The notes under the pieces: generated by a model
The model's input: the letters and a program-made list of their open reading frames with translations, nothing else
Databases searched by the model: none
Told to the model about the DNA's origin: nothing
Shown: positions 14,680 through 20,884 of the stretch, in pieces
Numbering within the stretch: the stretch's first letter is position 1
Layout of the letters: the number at the start of each line of letters is the position of its first letter
From: an uncultured Alphaproteobacteria bacterium
GTDB taxonomy: Bacteria; Pseudomonadota; Alphaproteobacteria; RF32; CAG-239
Direction of reading: 5' to 3'
Assembly: GCA_944390315.1 (NCBI GenBank)
Contig: CALXPO010000027.1
Span: 62,001 to 126,000 of the forward strand
DNA length: 64,000 nt
Program-made: the position numbers and the translations under genes

Positions 14680-16077
14680 TTATTCACCACGTTTGATTTT
14701 ATCAATCAATTCCTTGACTGAAGGAATACAGCCGTTGCGGTATAATGGATCTGTCGCAAAACGATATACTTGATGTCCGGCAAAAAGCAGATGGTCTTTT
14801 ACGCTGCCGCCGTGACCGACTTCGTATAGTGTTTTATGAATGCAATAAGTACGAGGATCCGGAATTCGTCCGGTTGAACCGGTCGGGCTGATAGCGGACC
14901 AAGTCGAAAACTGACATTGTGAAAGGCAGCCGACACAATTTTTTCGGTCTTCTTTCATCTGTTCCCAATCTTCCGGTGTCATAAATACAACGGTTTGATC
15001 CGGTGTTTCTTTGATTGAAGTTAAACCCGCATTTATTTGGTTGTTGGCTTTGGCCATGTCTTCGGCTTTGATAAACACCGTTTTATGTTCACTCAATTTT
15101 AAGGGCTGTGAAAATTCGGCATCAGCTTCCGGTTTGAACGCAATTTCACCATTCTTGCGATTTATCAATTTTTCGAGAAAAGTGTTTTTAATTGCCGATG
15201 AAAAGAATCCCGTTGGACTAAAACGTTGTAAGATGACATCGCCTTTTTTGACATGCATCATAACTTTTTTCCATGCTTCACTGACAGGGCTTTCTTTTGT
15301 AATCATCGGACGTGTGCCAAATTGAAAAGCTAACTTTCCGATTTCGGGATTGTCGATATAGTCTTCCCAATCTTTGAGCGACCATACACCGCCTGCCAAA
15401 ATTATCGGGATTTCGGTCAGACCGTAGCCATTCATAACGCGTCGTAAATCGGCAACCCGATTGTAAGGTGTTTCGGGTTTGGTTGGATCTTCGGCGTTGG
15501 ATAAGCCGTTGTGCCCGCCGGCAAGCCATGGATCTTCATAAACAACGCCGCCTAAGAATTCTCTAAAATTAGAATATGCTCTTTTCCATAAGATGTTAAA
15601 AGCTCTGGCTGAAGAAACAATGGGGTAATAGTAGACGCCAAATTTTGAAGCTAAAGCGCCTAAATGATAAGGCATACCTGCTCCGCAAGTAATACCGTTG
15701 ATAAGTCCTTTGGCTCTTTCTAAAACGCCTTCCAAAATTTTTTGAGAATCGGCTAATTCCCATAGCATGTTCATGTGAATACGACCATTGCCGTTAGAAA
15801 TCTCATGAGCAACTTGTGCTTGTGCAACTCCTCCTTTTATGGCACGTTCGACCATTTCGTCATGTCTTTCGGGACGTGATTTTTTAAGAAAATGTTCAGC
15901 TACAACATTGCCGTTTTCGTCATAAAAATCGGGGCTGACCCCAGAAAAGGTGCCAACACAGTTTTCATGAGCCCAAGCGCCGCTGCTGCGACCGTCACTC
16001 GCATTAATCCCTTTGCCGCCTTCTACCAACGGCAAAACTTCTTTGCCTGATATGAGAATTGGATTTAAGTTTTTCAA
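14680..16077 (-). CDS. Nitronate monooxygenase / 2-nitropropane dioxygenase-like FMN protein
   Basis: 465 aa TIM-barrel flavoprotein. Visible family features: GITCGAGMPYHLG (~residues 131-143), LAGGHNGLSNAEDP with the GGH motif near the proposed catalytic region, PIILAGGVWS and FQFGTRPMITKE at the phosphate-binding end. Typical members are 320-360 aa; here the N-terminal ~100 residues and a C-terminal ~130 are extra. The C-terminal part has CVGCLSQCQF and two more cysteines (CIHKTLY, NGCIPS), which could bind metal. True nitronate oxidation is not assured; the substrate is unknown. Confidence 0.75.
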   Translation of the reverse strand: MKNLNPILISGKEVLPLVEGGKGINASDGRSSGAWAHENCVGTFSGVSPDFYDENGNVVAEHFLKKSRPERHDEMVERAIKGGVAQAQVAHEISNGNGRIHMNMLWELADSQKILEGVLERAKGLINGITCGAGMPYHLGALASKFGVYYYPIVSSARAFNILWKRAYSNFREFLGGVVYEDPWLAGGHNGLSNAEDPTKPETPYNRVADLRRVMNGYGLTEIPIILAGGVWSLKDWEDYIDNPEIGKLAFQFGTRPMITKESPVSEAWKKVMMHVKKGDVILQRFSPTGFFSSAIKNTFLEKLINRKNGEIAFKPEADAEFSQPLKLSEHKTVFIKAEDMAKANNQINAGLTSIKETPDQTVVFMTPEDWEQMKEDRKNCVGCLSQCQFSTWSAISPTGSTGRIPDPRTYCIHKTLYEVGHGGSVKDHLLFAGHQVYRFATDPLYRNGCIPSVKELIDKIKRGE

Positions 16078-16148: not shown

Positions 16149-17630
16149 TTAGGATGCCAACATCACAATTTCAAGAGGGAGATGGTTAATTGAAATTAAG
16201 GTTATCAATAAACAAACAATCGCGTATATTTCCAAAATGATGGGTAAGGGGGCTAATTGAAATAACGGCAGTTTTTGTTTTAATTTTTTTATGAGTTGGT
16301 GCAGACCATATGAAATTGCTATGATGATAATGACTTGTATTCCTATGCCTATATCATGCAAAGCAGAGGAAAATGGTTTGAGAAACATATGAAGCATTCC
16401 AAAAAATAACGTGTATAATACAATACCCAAAACGGTGAAGTGATTTAATCGAACTAAATGTTGGTGCTTTAGTTTTTCTTCCGCTGCCGTTTTTTCGGGG
16501 GAAATATTTTCAATTTCAACCCCGCGGATGGTTTTGGGAGTTTGTCTTAAAATCCTTTTCTCTTCCATGTCGGATTTGAATTTTGCTTCAATCGAACATA
16601 AACCGCAGCCTTTCGAGGTAAAATAGGCATGATTGGGATTTTTTTTGCAGGGTCTAATATTTTGTAAAAGCCAACGCAAATGTTGTTCCCATTCGGCAGC
16701 ACTGGGCCTTTTCATTCCTTTTACAAAAGCGCGATCAAACAAATCTAAGGTATCTTTATGAAAATAATCGTGAATACTGTAAGGATGAGGCGCTTGATAC
16801 AAATCTGCCCAAGTTCCATAAGGGTAATGGTAGGCGGCTATGCGTTCTTGAATGGTGAGATTAGGAAGTCCTTGTTTGCGGGGAACACCGGAAAATGGAT
16901 GGATTCCGTTGTTTAGCAATTTGAACAAGATAACCGCCAATGCAAATTTATCTTGTTCTTCTCCCATTTGATCGCAACTTTCATTCATACCTTCAGGGTA
17001 GATGTATTCTTCGCTGACAAATTCCGCAGGATAGCGCTCTTTCTCGCCGCGTATTGAAAAACCGTCGCAATCTAAGAGTGTAATAAGCATACTTTGCTTA
17101 TATACGTAGACATTGGATGGTTTCAAATCTATAATGTAATGTCCTTTTTCGTGTAAGGCCGCAACCATTGTACATAAATTGTATGCAATTTGCAGTCGGT
17201 GTTCATATTTTTCGCTTAATTTTAATTTTTGACGGATTGCTTTTTGCATAAAATGATCCAGAGAAGCCGCTTGACTCAAGTCTATTAAGGGCATCAGATA
17301 GCCGACGCAAAATCCTGAATCATTTTCAAGCAAAGCCTCCGGCCAAGCAATTTGAATGTAGTTACTTCCATCGGCCATTATAAATTGTTTGCCGTCTTTC
17401 ATGGCTGGTGAAAAACTCGGACGATTGAGCAACATAGCTTGCAATTTTTCTCTATTTGTACTGCTTTTGCTGAGATTATGAAAAATTTTAGCAACCAAAT
17501 CGGGGTGTCCGTTAACACGGTATATACGTCCGGCGGCTCCGCCTTTGTTAATCATTTCGCCTAAAACGATTTGTTCCCATGTCCTATCGCCGTATATGGC
17601 ATTGTATCTTTGTTCTGTCGTTTCTGTCAT
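16149..17630 (-). CDS. Membrane-anchored protein kinase-like protein of a TerY-P-type triad
   Basis: 493 aa from ATG 17630, which overlaps the PP2C stop by 4 bases (ATGA); a GTG 12 bases upstream is less likely. The kinase fold has a Gly-rich loop GEMINKGGAAGRIY (24-37), VAKIF with Lys48, the catalytic loop IIDLKPSN with Asp168 and Asn173, and LLDCDGF with the metal-binding Asp187/189. It therefore looks active. A small Cys/His knuckle follows (C328, H334, C342, C345), then three membrane helices in the last ~100 residues. It lies in an operon with PP2C and vWA genes, a recurrent kinase/phosphatase/TerY module. Substrates are unknown; the vWA protein is the natural candidate. Confidence 0.82.
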   Translation of the reverse strand: MTETTEQRYNAIYGDRTWEQIVLGEMINKGGAAGRIYRVNGHPDLVAKIFHNLSKSSTNREKLQAMLLNRPSFSPAMKDGKQFIMADGSNYIQIAWPEALLENDSGFCVGYLMPLIDLSQAASLDHFMQKAIRQKLKLSEKYEHRLQIAYNLCTMVAALHEKGHYIIDLKPSNVYVYKQSMLITLLDCDGFSIRGEKERYPAEFVSEEYIYPEGMNESCDQMGEEQDKFALAVILFKLLNNGIHPFSGVPRKQGLPNLTIQERIAAYHYPYGTWADLYQAPHPYSIHDYFHKDTLDLFDRAFVKGMKRPSAAEWEQHLRWLLQNIRPCKKNPNHAYFTSKGCGLCSIEAKFKSDMEEKRILRQTPKTIRGVEIENISPEKTAAEEKLKHQHLVRLNHFTVLGIVLYTLFFGMLHMFLKPFSSALHDIGIGIQVIIIIAISYGLHQLIKKLKQKLPLFQLAPLPIILEIYAIVCLLITLISINHLPLEIVMLAS

Positions 17631-18376
17631 AGTTTTGCCCACAAAAAGGTTTTATCATCCGGATTAAGTTTTTGAGCTTTTAATGTCTGAAAGGTGTTGC
17701 TTAAGGCTCGTTCGGCTTTTGTTTTTTGTGTCTCTGATTTTAAAAATTTTGTTATGGGAAGTAAAAAATTTGGTTCTATTCGACTAAAATCTGATGAAAA
17801 TGAAAAATTTGTCAGACCATCAGACATCAGAATGACAGTATCAGCTTCATGAAAAGGCGTAAAGCGTAAACTTTCTTTCCAATCATCCATTGTATAAAAA
17901 TAAGTCTCGCAGGCAAAAATACCGTTCTCAGGTTTTGAAGCCGTATATTTTGACAAATCCGGACTTGTGAAGGCTAAGGCTGCTCCGTCGCCTATATGAA
18001 AGAAAAGTCCTTCTCCATGATGGCAGACAACACCGACAACGGTGGCGGAAAAAGCCATGATGCCTTTTTTGTTGTTAGAAGAATTCAGGCGGTGAAAAGT
18101 AATTTTATCTCGGGCGACTTCTATTGCATTGGTAATGGCATTGCGAATATTTTTGAAATTTGCATTCGCTAACAAGTCAATCAATGTATCACAAACAATT
18201 TTTGCTCCGATACGACCATATTTGGTCGAACCGGCTCCGTCTGATACGACGGCCACAAAATTGGCGCCGCGGGTTGAGTAACGGCAATAATCCTGACATT
18301 TTTGACCGCGACTCAAGTGAATCGGACCGGTAACGCAGGCTGTATAAACTTTTATTTTGTTGTTATTGTTCTTCAT
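17627..18376 (-). CDS. PP2C-type protein phosphatase of the triad
   Basis: 249 aa from ATG 18376, which lies inside the vWA gene's 3' end (14-base overlap). Longer starts would overlap the vWA gene further and precede the fold. PP2C metal motifs are present: GQKCQDY (24-30), VVSDGAGSTKYG (44-55), FFHIGDGAA (~130) and ILMSDGLTNF near residue 185. It should remove phosphate from Ser/Thr residues set by the adjacent kinase. The triple overlap in this operon implies stoichiometric, coupled synthesis. Confidence 0.85.
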   Translation of the reverse strand: MKNNNNKIKVYTACVTGPIHLSRGQKCQDYCRYSTRGANFVAVVSDGAGSTKYGRIGAKIVCDTLIDLLANANFKNIRNAITNAIEVARDKITFHRLNSSNNKKGIMAFSATVVGVVCHHGEGLFFHIGDGAALAFTSPDLSKYTASKPENGIFACETYFYTMDDWKESLRFTPFHEADTVILMSDGLTNFSFSSDFSRIEPNFLLPITKFLKSETQKTKAERALSNTFQTLKAQKLNPDDKTFLWAKL

Positions 18377-19049
18377 CCCAATTTTCCGTATCATCCAGAA
18401 GTTCTTCGGCGTTGGGTGCTGCTTTGGATATACAAGAAACACTGCGACTGAGCCATAAGAAAAATTCGGTAAATTTGAGTCCGCTTAGGCGTTTGGGCGG
18501 GTTAAGCGAAAACTTGGCTAATTTTTCAAGATTGGCGCCTTCCGTACCAACCGCATGTATTACAACTTTTTTATTCTCCTGTGCTTGGCAGCATTTGCGC
18601 GCTATACTTTCCCAGTCATAGTCGGTTGGTTCCCCGTCGCTGATGAGAAATATCCATGGGCGTTTTGAGGTAATGCCGCAATTATCATACAGACATTTTT
18701 GTTCTTCTATCTTTTTTAGGGCTGTTTCCATAGCTTTGCCAAGGGGAGTTAAACCGCCGGCAACCATTTCGGGCGCACTAAAATTCATAGCATCAATCCA
18801 GTCAGATGAAATTTCAATTTCGTCTTTGCCAAAGGCTTTGATAATAAGAAGTTGGACACGTGAACTTGCGTCAATATCTTCTTTGAGCTCCTTTTCTAAG
18901 GCCTTAAGGCCTATATTAAGTTGTTTTATGGGTTCTCCTCTCATGGAACCGGAACAGTCCAGCACCAAAACGCAGGGGGTCCGTTCGTTTGCATTATCTG
19001 CAAATTCTACATAGGGAATTAAATCATCAACAAAATTGTTTTCTGCCAT
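18363..19049 (-). CDS. TerY-like von Willebrand factor A domain protein
   Basis: 228 aa, a single vWA domain with an intact MIDAS: DCSGSM (D31, S33, S35), T101 in GGLTPLGKAM and D138 in LISDGEPTD. TerY-type proteins bind a divalent metal and sit with a kinase and PP2C in tellurite/stress-linked modules. It has no signal peptide, so it is cytoplasmic. It is first in the operon and its end overlaps the PP2C start. The C-terminal ~55 residues (FSLNPPKRLSGLKFTEFF onward) match the TerY-like tail pattern loosely. No terA-F genes are in the window. Confidence 0.83.
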   Translation of the reverse strand: MAENNFVDDLIPYVEFADNANERTPCVLVLDCSGSMRGEPIKQLNIGLKALEKELKEDIDASSRVQLLIIKAFGKDEIEISSDWIDAMNFSAPEMVAGGLTPLGKAMETALKKIEEQKCLYDNCGITSKRPWIFLISDGEPTDYDWESIARKCCQAQENKKVVIHAVGTEGANLEKLAKFSLNPPKRLSGLKFTEFFLWLSRSVSCISKAAPNAEELLDDTENWDEEQ

Positions 19050-19068: not shown

Positions 19069-19200
19069 TCAGTTGCGAGGATAGCTGTGCGGATAGCCGC
19101 TGCCGTCCATAGGACGCAGGTTGGATACCTTACCGCAACCGGAAATACAAAAGATTGACGTTATCAGTACAATGTATGTTAACAATTTTATTTTGCTCAT
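19069..19200 (-). CDS. Small LptM/YifL-like lipoprotein, 43 aa
   Basis: Too short for usual gene calling. ATG 19200, stop 19069-19071. The N-terminus MSKIKLLTYIVLITSIF is a signal peptide; the lipobox ISGC puts the lipidated Cys at 22, followed by GKVSNLRPMDGSGYPHSYP. Cys-Gly-Lys, then a Pro-rich tail ending in YPR, is the pattern of small periplasmic lipoproteins of the LptM (YifL) kind. A weak AAGG lies ~10 bases upstream. It is on the same strand as the vWA gene and 19 bases from it, so it could begin that transcript. No LysA gene is adjacent, unlike many LptM loci. Confidence 0.65.
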   Translation of the reverse strand: MSKIKLLTYIVLITSIFCISGCGKVSNLRPMDGSGYPHSYPRN

Positions 19201-19284
19201 GTTTTTTATCACCTTTGTCCTTGTCTAAAATCATATACTGTGTTTATATATTATTGCGATTTTATACACAAGTTAAAATGTAAT

Positions 19285-19906: not shown

Positions 19907-20884
19907 TTATAAATTTTGTTCTCGCAAATTGGGAAAAAGCTCTTTTCCGAGAAACAATCTGCTGCGTTGTGTATCAATAGAGGTTGCTAAATTCAATTTT
20001 CCCGTTTTTATGATGGCTCTGACTTGATCGCCTTGTGTCGTATCAGGGTTGGCAAAGAGGAAAGAAACAGCCGGAACTTTTTTGCGAATGCCATTTAATG
20101 TTTGATGCAATACCGCAAGCATGCCTCGAGAAAAAAGATCATAGGCCAAATCTTCTGTCATACCTGATGATGAAGCGTATTTGATAACAGAGTTTATGGC
20201 ATCCGTAACATTGTTTGCATGAATGGTTGACAGCACAAGATGTCCGGATGTGCATGCTCGTAAAACTTCGCTTGCCGTTTCGGGGGTTCTGATTTCACCG
20301 ACCAAAATAAAACGAGGCTTTGAACGGAGAGCGGATTTTAGACAGGCTCCCCAATTTCCTTCAATGGGTTGAGTTTGTTTACACAGTCCCAAACTTCCGT
20401 TTAAGGCATTGTAACTTCCGTCAAGGGGCATTTCTGCCGGATCTTCAATGGTGTAAGCAAATCCTCCTTCGTTTATCAAATATTCTTTCATTAATGATGA
20501 AATTGCGGTGGTTTTGCCGGCTCCGGTCGGACCTGACCATAAAATAAGACCGGCAGAGTTGCTCAGACTTAGTAGATATTTGCGCAATTCCGGTGCAAAG
20601 CCGAGGGTGTTAAAAGAAGGAACTTCCGCAGGCATTTTACGGGCACAATATTGGATTCCGTATATGCTGACACTTCTTTCAACACGATATAATATTTTGT
20701 TATACAGAATGGAATAGCTTGGATTGCTTCCATTATAAGAACTTTCGACTTTGTCATAGAAATAATTGAAATCATCGGCTTTTATTTTCATGAGACCGTT
20801 GGCTGTTTTGCCATCCGGAATATACGCCGTTTTTTCGGGAGTTATATAAATGTCCGAGAAATTGATTTCGTTGATGGTGCTCAT
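19907..20884 (-). CDS. PilT/GspE-superfamily secretion or pilus ATPase, orphan
   Basis: 325 aa. Walker A is GPTGAGKTTA; Asp box-like TIEDPAEMPL; Walker B-like FILVGEIRTPETA; and the His box HLVLSTIHANN. These define the PilT/DotB-type branch of type II/IV secretion ATPases. The N-terminal ~100 residues form the PAS-like half of the family. A retraction-type or DotB-like role is possible. No pilin, PilC or other secretion gene occurs in the window, so its machine lies elsewhere or it acts alone. Confidence 0.85.
   Translation of the reverse strand: MSTINEINFSDIYITPEKTAYIPDGKTANGLMKIKADDFNYFYDKVESSYNGSNPSYSILYNKILYRVERSVSIYGIQYCARKMPAEVPSFNTLGFAPELRKYLLSLSNSAGLILWSGPTGAGKTTAISSLMKEYLINEGGFAYTIEDPAEMPLDGSYNALNGSLGLCKQTQPIEGNWGACLKSALRSKPRFILVGEIRTPETASEVLRACTSGHLVLSTIHANNVTDAINSVIKYASSSGMTEDLAYDLFSRGMLAVLHQTLNGIRKKVPAVSFLFANPDTTQGDQVRAIIKTGKLNLATSIDTQRSRLFLGKELFPNLREQNL

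Follow-up and report, generated by a model that had tools for sequence, protein, structure and literature searches.

A core chromosomal vWA-PP2C-kinase locus of the YegL-PphC-YegI type in gut Alphaproteobacteria

We analyzed a 64,000-nucleotide (nt) stretch of DNA (contig CALXPO010000027.1, positions 62,001 to 126,000 of the forward strand; hereafter the window) from an uncultured alphaproteobacterium (GTDB lineage RF32; CAG-239) with a genome of 1.56 Mb, and focused on three adjacent minus-strand genes for a von Willebrand factor A (vWA) protein, a PP2C phosphatase and a protein kinase (Table 1). An original prediction, made from the letters alone, had described these genes as an overlapping operon forming a TerY-P triad without ter genes. 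The co-inherited kinase-PP2C-vWA unit and the absence of ter genes were supported here, but not its filing under TerY-P: the window genes are a new example of the YegL-PphC-YegI triad, one with an unusually core character. The E. coli K-12 version of this triad, yegL-pphC (yegK)-yegI, has the same three domains in the same order and is likewise free-standing without ter genes. The open reading frames (ORFs) overlapped as claimed, by 14 nt (18363-18376) between the vWA and PP2C genes and by ATGA (17627-17630) between the PP2C and kinase genes, and all three proteins exceeded the gathering scores of their Pfam models (PP2C_2, 8.1e-36; Pkinase, 8.9e-11; VWA, 2.1e-06).

First, sequence comparison and phylogeny placed the window locus on the YegL side. 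The vWA protein was nearer to E. coli YegL (41% identity over 210 amino acids, aa) than to TerY of the E. coli ter plasmid (29-32%), and the kinase matched YegI at 27% over 347 aa (E 2e-25) and the ter kinase at 25% over part of the protein. In both the vWA and kinase trees, the ter sequences were split from the YegL/window side with support of 100/100; on the YegL side, the order to which the window belongs formed its own subclade, and one gammaproteobacterial sequence and one alphaproteobacterial sequence from another family were located near the base. The window kinase also grouped with YegI in possessing membrane segments and a C-x5-H-xn-C-x2-C knuckle. The C-terminal helices and the Cys/His knuckle that the original prediction had pointed out were both present, as features common to this branch rather than oddities: in YegI, too, the kinase domain is succeeded by a C-H-C-C knuckle, and hydrophobic segments lie at the C terminus. 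On the other hand, the catalytic loop of YegI reads GDVNQNS, without the canonical lysine, compared with IDLKPSN in the window kinase; YegI continues at its C terminus into an additional region that weakly matches a helix-hairpin-helix, whereas the third hydrophobic segment is the last feature of the window kinase; and K-12 has yegJ as an extra gene separating pphC from yegI.

Second, comparison with the ter plasmid cluster (terY1-terX-terY2-terY-C-PP2C-kinase) revealed co-directional vWA, PP2C and kinase genes in the same order as in the window. However, the plasmid cluster contains three vWA genes, the third with a TerY_C metal-binding domain that Pfam did not find in the window vWA protein, as well as a longer PP2C (577 aa) and embedded TerD-family genes, and it belongs to a separate clade. 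The ter kinase has no membrane segments. A TerY-P kinase would be fused at its C terminus to a zinc ribbon; in the window kinase, the C-H-C-C knuckle comes after the kinase domain, with a cysteine pattern unlike that of the ter kinase, and the membrane segments then follow. No terD-like gene and no vWA-TerF was found in the locus or in the rest of the host genome, in agreement with the earlier claim that no ter genes were nearby. A search of 24 other YegL-branch genomes gave no TerD genes in 23; in the remaining one they were situated on a different contig. Thus, the absence of ter genes is the rule for the YegL branch. In the single ter-type genome of the searched set, TerD genes lay beside the triad. 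Based on the trees, domain content and absent ter genes, TerY-P membership was rejected.

Third, the triad proved to be tightly co-inherited. The vWA profile was used to fetch 80 named loci, nearly all from uncultured Alphaproteobacteria and most of them from gut or rumen metagenomes. PP2C was present in all 80 and the kinase in 77, the three loci without it being cut by contig ends, and the same order of the three genes was observed in all of the first 20 loci. Within the order, the distance from vWA stop to PP2C start (longest ORFs) was no more than 5 nt, or the genes overlapped. Sampling within the host's genus, family and order gave 33 genomes, each of which encodes the kinase. Separation of the genes in relatives, which the original prediction had named as an outcome that would speak against it, was not what this neighborhood comparison revealed. 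Beyond the order, the YegL-type vWA protein is patchy: sampling detected it in 11 of 285 other genomes of the class and in 8 of 397 other genomes of the phylum, one of these 8 being ter-type. Within the order's sample it is universal. In the host genome, Pkinase matched the triad kinase alone, and no PP2C_2 match other than the triad phosphatase passed the cut-off; therefore, neither has another obvious partner. Finally, among closely related pairs giving a value (n = 8), the ratio of nonsynonymous to synonymous substitution rates (dN/dS) was 0.003-0.014 for vWA, 0.010-0.072 for PP2C and 0.026-0.059 for the kinase, all far below 1, with vWA lowest of the three genes in every pair. Median identity was 84% for vWA vs 54-56% for PP2C and the kinase. 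Such slow evolution of vWA would fit a hub with several partners.

Several individual loci showed other arrangements. In a gammaproteobacterial locus (L146, 2861-5772), the kinase gene lies on the opposite strand, convergent to vWA-PP2C. Two related alphaproteobacterial genomes (L166, 77-2670; L167, 5522-7947) have a YegL-type vWA gene immediately followed by the kinase gene, without a recognized PP2C. Interrupted PP2C and shortened kinase frames, possibly assembly errors, were observed in two metagenome-assembled genomes (L089, 796-1215; L106, 9419-10525). One locus (L171, MT836238.1, 1719-11473) is labelled 'Bacteriophage sp.', but the record is a fragment of a bacterial chromosome with the same gene order as the window, and a phage link was rejected.

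Analysis of active sites was based on alignments of 77-81 proteins per family. In the vWA protein, D31, S33, S35 and D138 of the metal ion-dependent adhesion site (MIDAS) were invariant, and position 101 was T, with S in 9 of 81; the PP2C residues D46, G47, D130, G131, D186, D240 and D241, including the metal aspartates, were invariant as well. Both sites can be regarded as intact, as originally claimed. The claim that the kinase has all catalytic residues was borne out in part. K48, D168, K170, N173, D187, D189 and G190 were invariant, and the catalytic loop IDLKPSN and the DCDG motif are intact; however, the HRD motif reads I-I-D, so the enzyme is not of the RD class, DCDG stands in place of DFG, and no obvious conserved counterpart of the alpha-C glutamate was found. 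The knuckle residues C328, H334, C342 and C345 were invariant in 77-78 relatives and conserved in E. coli YegI. Hydropathy analysis predicted three hydrophobic segments near the C terminus, in support of a membrane-anchored kinase, and the model has long helices at 378-482. The AlphaFold model of the kinase (38 sequences) had a kinase fold (pLDDT 87.5) that contains the motifs, whose location outside such a fold had been considered a possible refutation of the original prediction; Foldseek matches included STK40, PknB and others (E about 1e-08, TM-score up to 0.73 by target). With this fold, the ATP-binding lysine, the catalytic Asp-Lys-Asn and the metal-binding Asp, the protein qualifies as a Hanks-type kinase. 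The vWA model showed a vWA fold (pLDDT 79.9) and matched many vWA structures, with the archaeal protein ArnB at rank 14 (E 3.8e-08). No solved relative of the vWA or PP2C protein was found by a sequence search of the PDB.

Table 1. Features of the triad locus, in coordinates of the window
Feature	Position	Strand	Description
vWA gene	18363..19049	-	228 aa, YegL-type, first gene of triad
PP2C gene	17627..18376	-	249 aa, PphC-type Ser/Thr phosphatase, internal ATG start at 18376
Kinase gene	16149..17630	-	493 aa, YegI-type membrane Ser/Thr kinase, ATG at 17630
Kinase C-H-C-C knuckle	16596..16649	-	C328-x5-H334-x7-C342-x2-C345, probable zinc site
Three predicted transmembrane segments	16188..16448	-	residues 395-413, 429-447, 463-481
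LptM-like lipoprotein ORF	19069..19212	-	47 aa, directly upstream, co-directional; conserved neighbor outside triad proper

Given the observed homology, intact active sites, tight co-inheritance, sole-copy status and fold, we consider it probable that the locus encodes a chromosomal signaling triad in which the kinase phosphorylates itself and the vWA protein, PP2C resets the system and vWA provides the output. According to PMC13232886 (citing Rajagopalan et al. 2018; Rajagopalan and Dworkin 2020), the E. coli kinase YegI resides at the membrane and undergoes serine autophosphorylation, which PphC reverses. By homology with this pair, a kinase-phosphatase cycle should operate here: the YegI-type membrane kinase would autophosphorylate and probably phosphorylate the co-translated vWA protein, and the PP2C enzyme would take the phosphates off. 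We infer that vWA may dock on the C-H-C-C knuckle of the kinase and that a signal may enter through its membrane segments. The vWA protein, the part under the strongest constraint, would then relay the output to partners at other sites in the cell. Its role as both substrate and output is suggested by co-translation, by the stronger constraint and by the precedent of archaeal ArnB (ArnA-ArnB-ArnC-PP2A; PMC12852372), a vWA protein that is the substrate of a Hanks kinase; there, a phosphatase undoes the modification and a zinc finger binds to the vWA protein. The view of the original prediction that vWA is the substrate or a metal sensor is a hypothesis at this stage. The Arn network has a phosphatase of another family (PP2A), and ArnB has extra domains; it is an analogy in working rather than a case of membership. 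No recurrent neighbor or effector gene was found near YegL-type triads across lineages outside the order, and thus the target probably acts in trans.

Several points weigh against this model. Identity between the window PP2C and PphC was low (22%, E 3e-10), and the PP2C of the ter plasmid, at 25% over a shorter alignment, was about as strong a match. No clear alpha-C glutamate is seen in the kinases of this branch, where K62 but not E61 is invariant, so that their activity is putative. Phosphorylation of YegL-type proteins is itself something that we infer, and the slow evolution of vWA could reflect a function unrelated to phosphorylation. In addition, no inducing condition is known for the E. 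coli triad genes according to the account given in PMC13232886.

Three other explanations were considered. It is possible, though rather unlikely, that the kinase-phosphatase pair acts directly on the envelope or on other targets, with the vWA protein serving as a scaffold or metal-dependent assembly factor and never as a substrate. Proteins with vWA domains are commonly MIDAS-dependent scaffolds, and the anchoring of the kinase in the membrane, its status as sole kinase of the genome, and the presence of an LptM-like lipoprotein gene beside the triad and of lptD in the same window would all suit this explanation; however, loss of lysA, not function, accounts for the position of the LptM-like gene (see below), and no gene recurred as a neighbor outside the order. 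Some TerY-P-like triads have been reported to act in anti-phage defense; such a module appeared very unlikely here. Although the kinase had weak PADLOC matches to PD-T4-6 kinases, the locus is core, syntenic in the order, single-copy and under strong purifying selection, unlike variable defense islands, its neighbors are ordinary cellular genes, and no nuclease or restriction gene recurred across YegL-type loci; it was the core, syntenic location that kept defense from being the main explanation. The CoCoNuT and Helicobacter pylori TerY-P modules share the triad concept with the window (PMC11090510, PMC4978471), but they are linked to McrBC, HEPN or WXG100/FtsK genes, in H. pylori on islands, and none of these genes was found near the window triad. 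Least probable of all is a strict TerY-P metal/tellurite stress triad whose ter effector genes were lost or lie elsewhere: the three domains and gene order, distant homology of all three proteins and a weak PADLOC TerY match (E 0.002) agree with it, but the absent TerD, vWA-TerF and TerY_C, the greater closeness to YegL in separate clades and the different ter kinase argue against it.

With regard to the preferred phospho-signaling triad, what is new here is the presence of the kinase in all 33 tested relatives, the occurrence of a sole Pkinase and a sole PP2C in the host genome, and a slow-evolving vWA protein. The E. coli triad is hardly expressed in the laboratory, whereas this order is a lineage in which the triad is universal in our sample. 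For comparative work on the YegL-PphC-YegI family, this order of gut Alphaproteobacteria with reduced genomes is a clean setting, in which the slow vWA, the invariant knuckle and the intact catalytic loop point to the part carrying the function. Kinase-PP2C-vWA triads without ter genes form a separate branch and are a core locus here, and the label of tellurite resistance is unsuitable for them. A more far-reaching proposal seems improbable at present, namely that Hanks-type phosphorylation across the order runs through this triad alone, that the triad is a near-essential core regulator, and that vWA is its phospho-controlled output, acting on a general cell process such as envelope assembly.

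Among the neighboring genes, the LptM-like gene was located directly upstream of the triad in 74 of the 79 loci with room for it. Its 47-aa product matched the LptM model weakly (E 0.058) and has a conserved C-terminal GSGYPH(S/T)YPR motif. In a sister-lineage locus (L142), the order is tlpA (divergent), lptM-like, lysA, DUF4175, vWA, PP2C and kinase, and lysA was not found in the window genome. Thus, deletion of lysA and DUF4175 best explains why the lipoprotein gene now adjoins the triad, as a leftover of a tlpA / lptM-lysA locus, and the lipoprotein was rejected as a fourth functional member despite its frequency; a functional link between it and the triad may have arisen later. A nitronate monooxygenase/FabK-like gene (14680-16077, minus strand) lies co-directionally downstream of the kinase and was present in 62 of 80 loci; it was rejected as an obligatory operon member, being missing or displaced in the remaining loci. 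Finally, the window has a PilT/GspE-type secretion ATPase gene (19907-20884, minus strand); roughly half of the relatives carry such a gene near the triad, as does L142 from the sister lineage.
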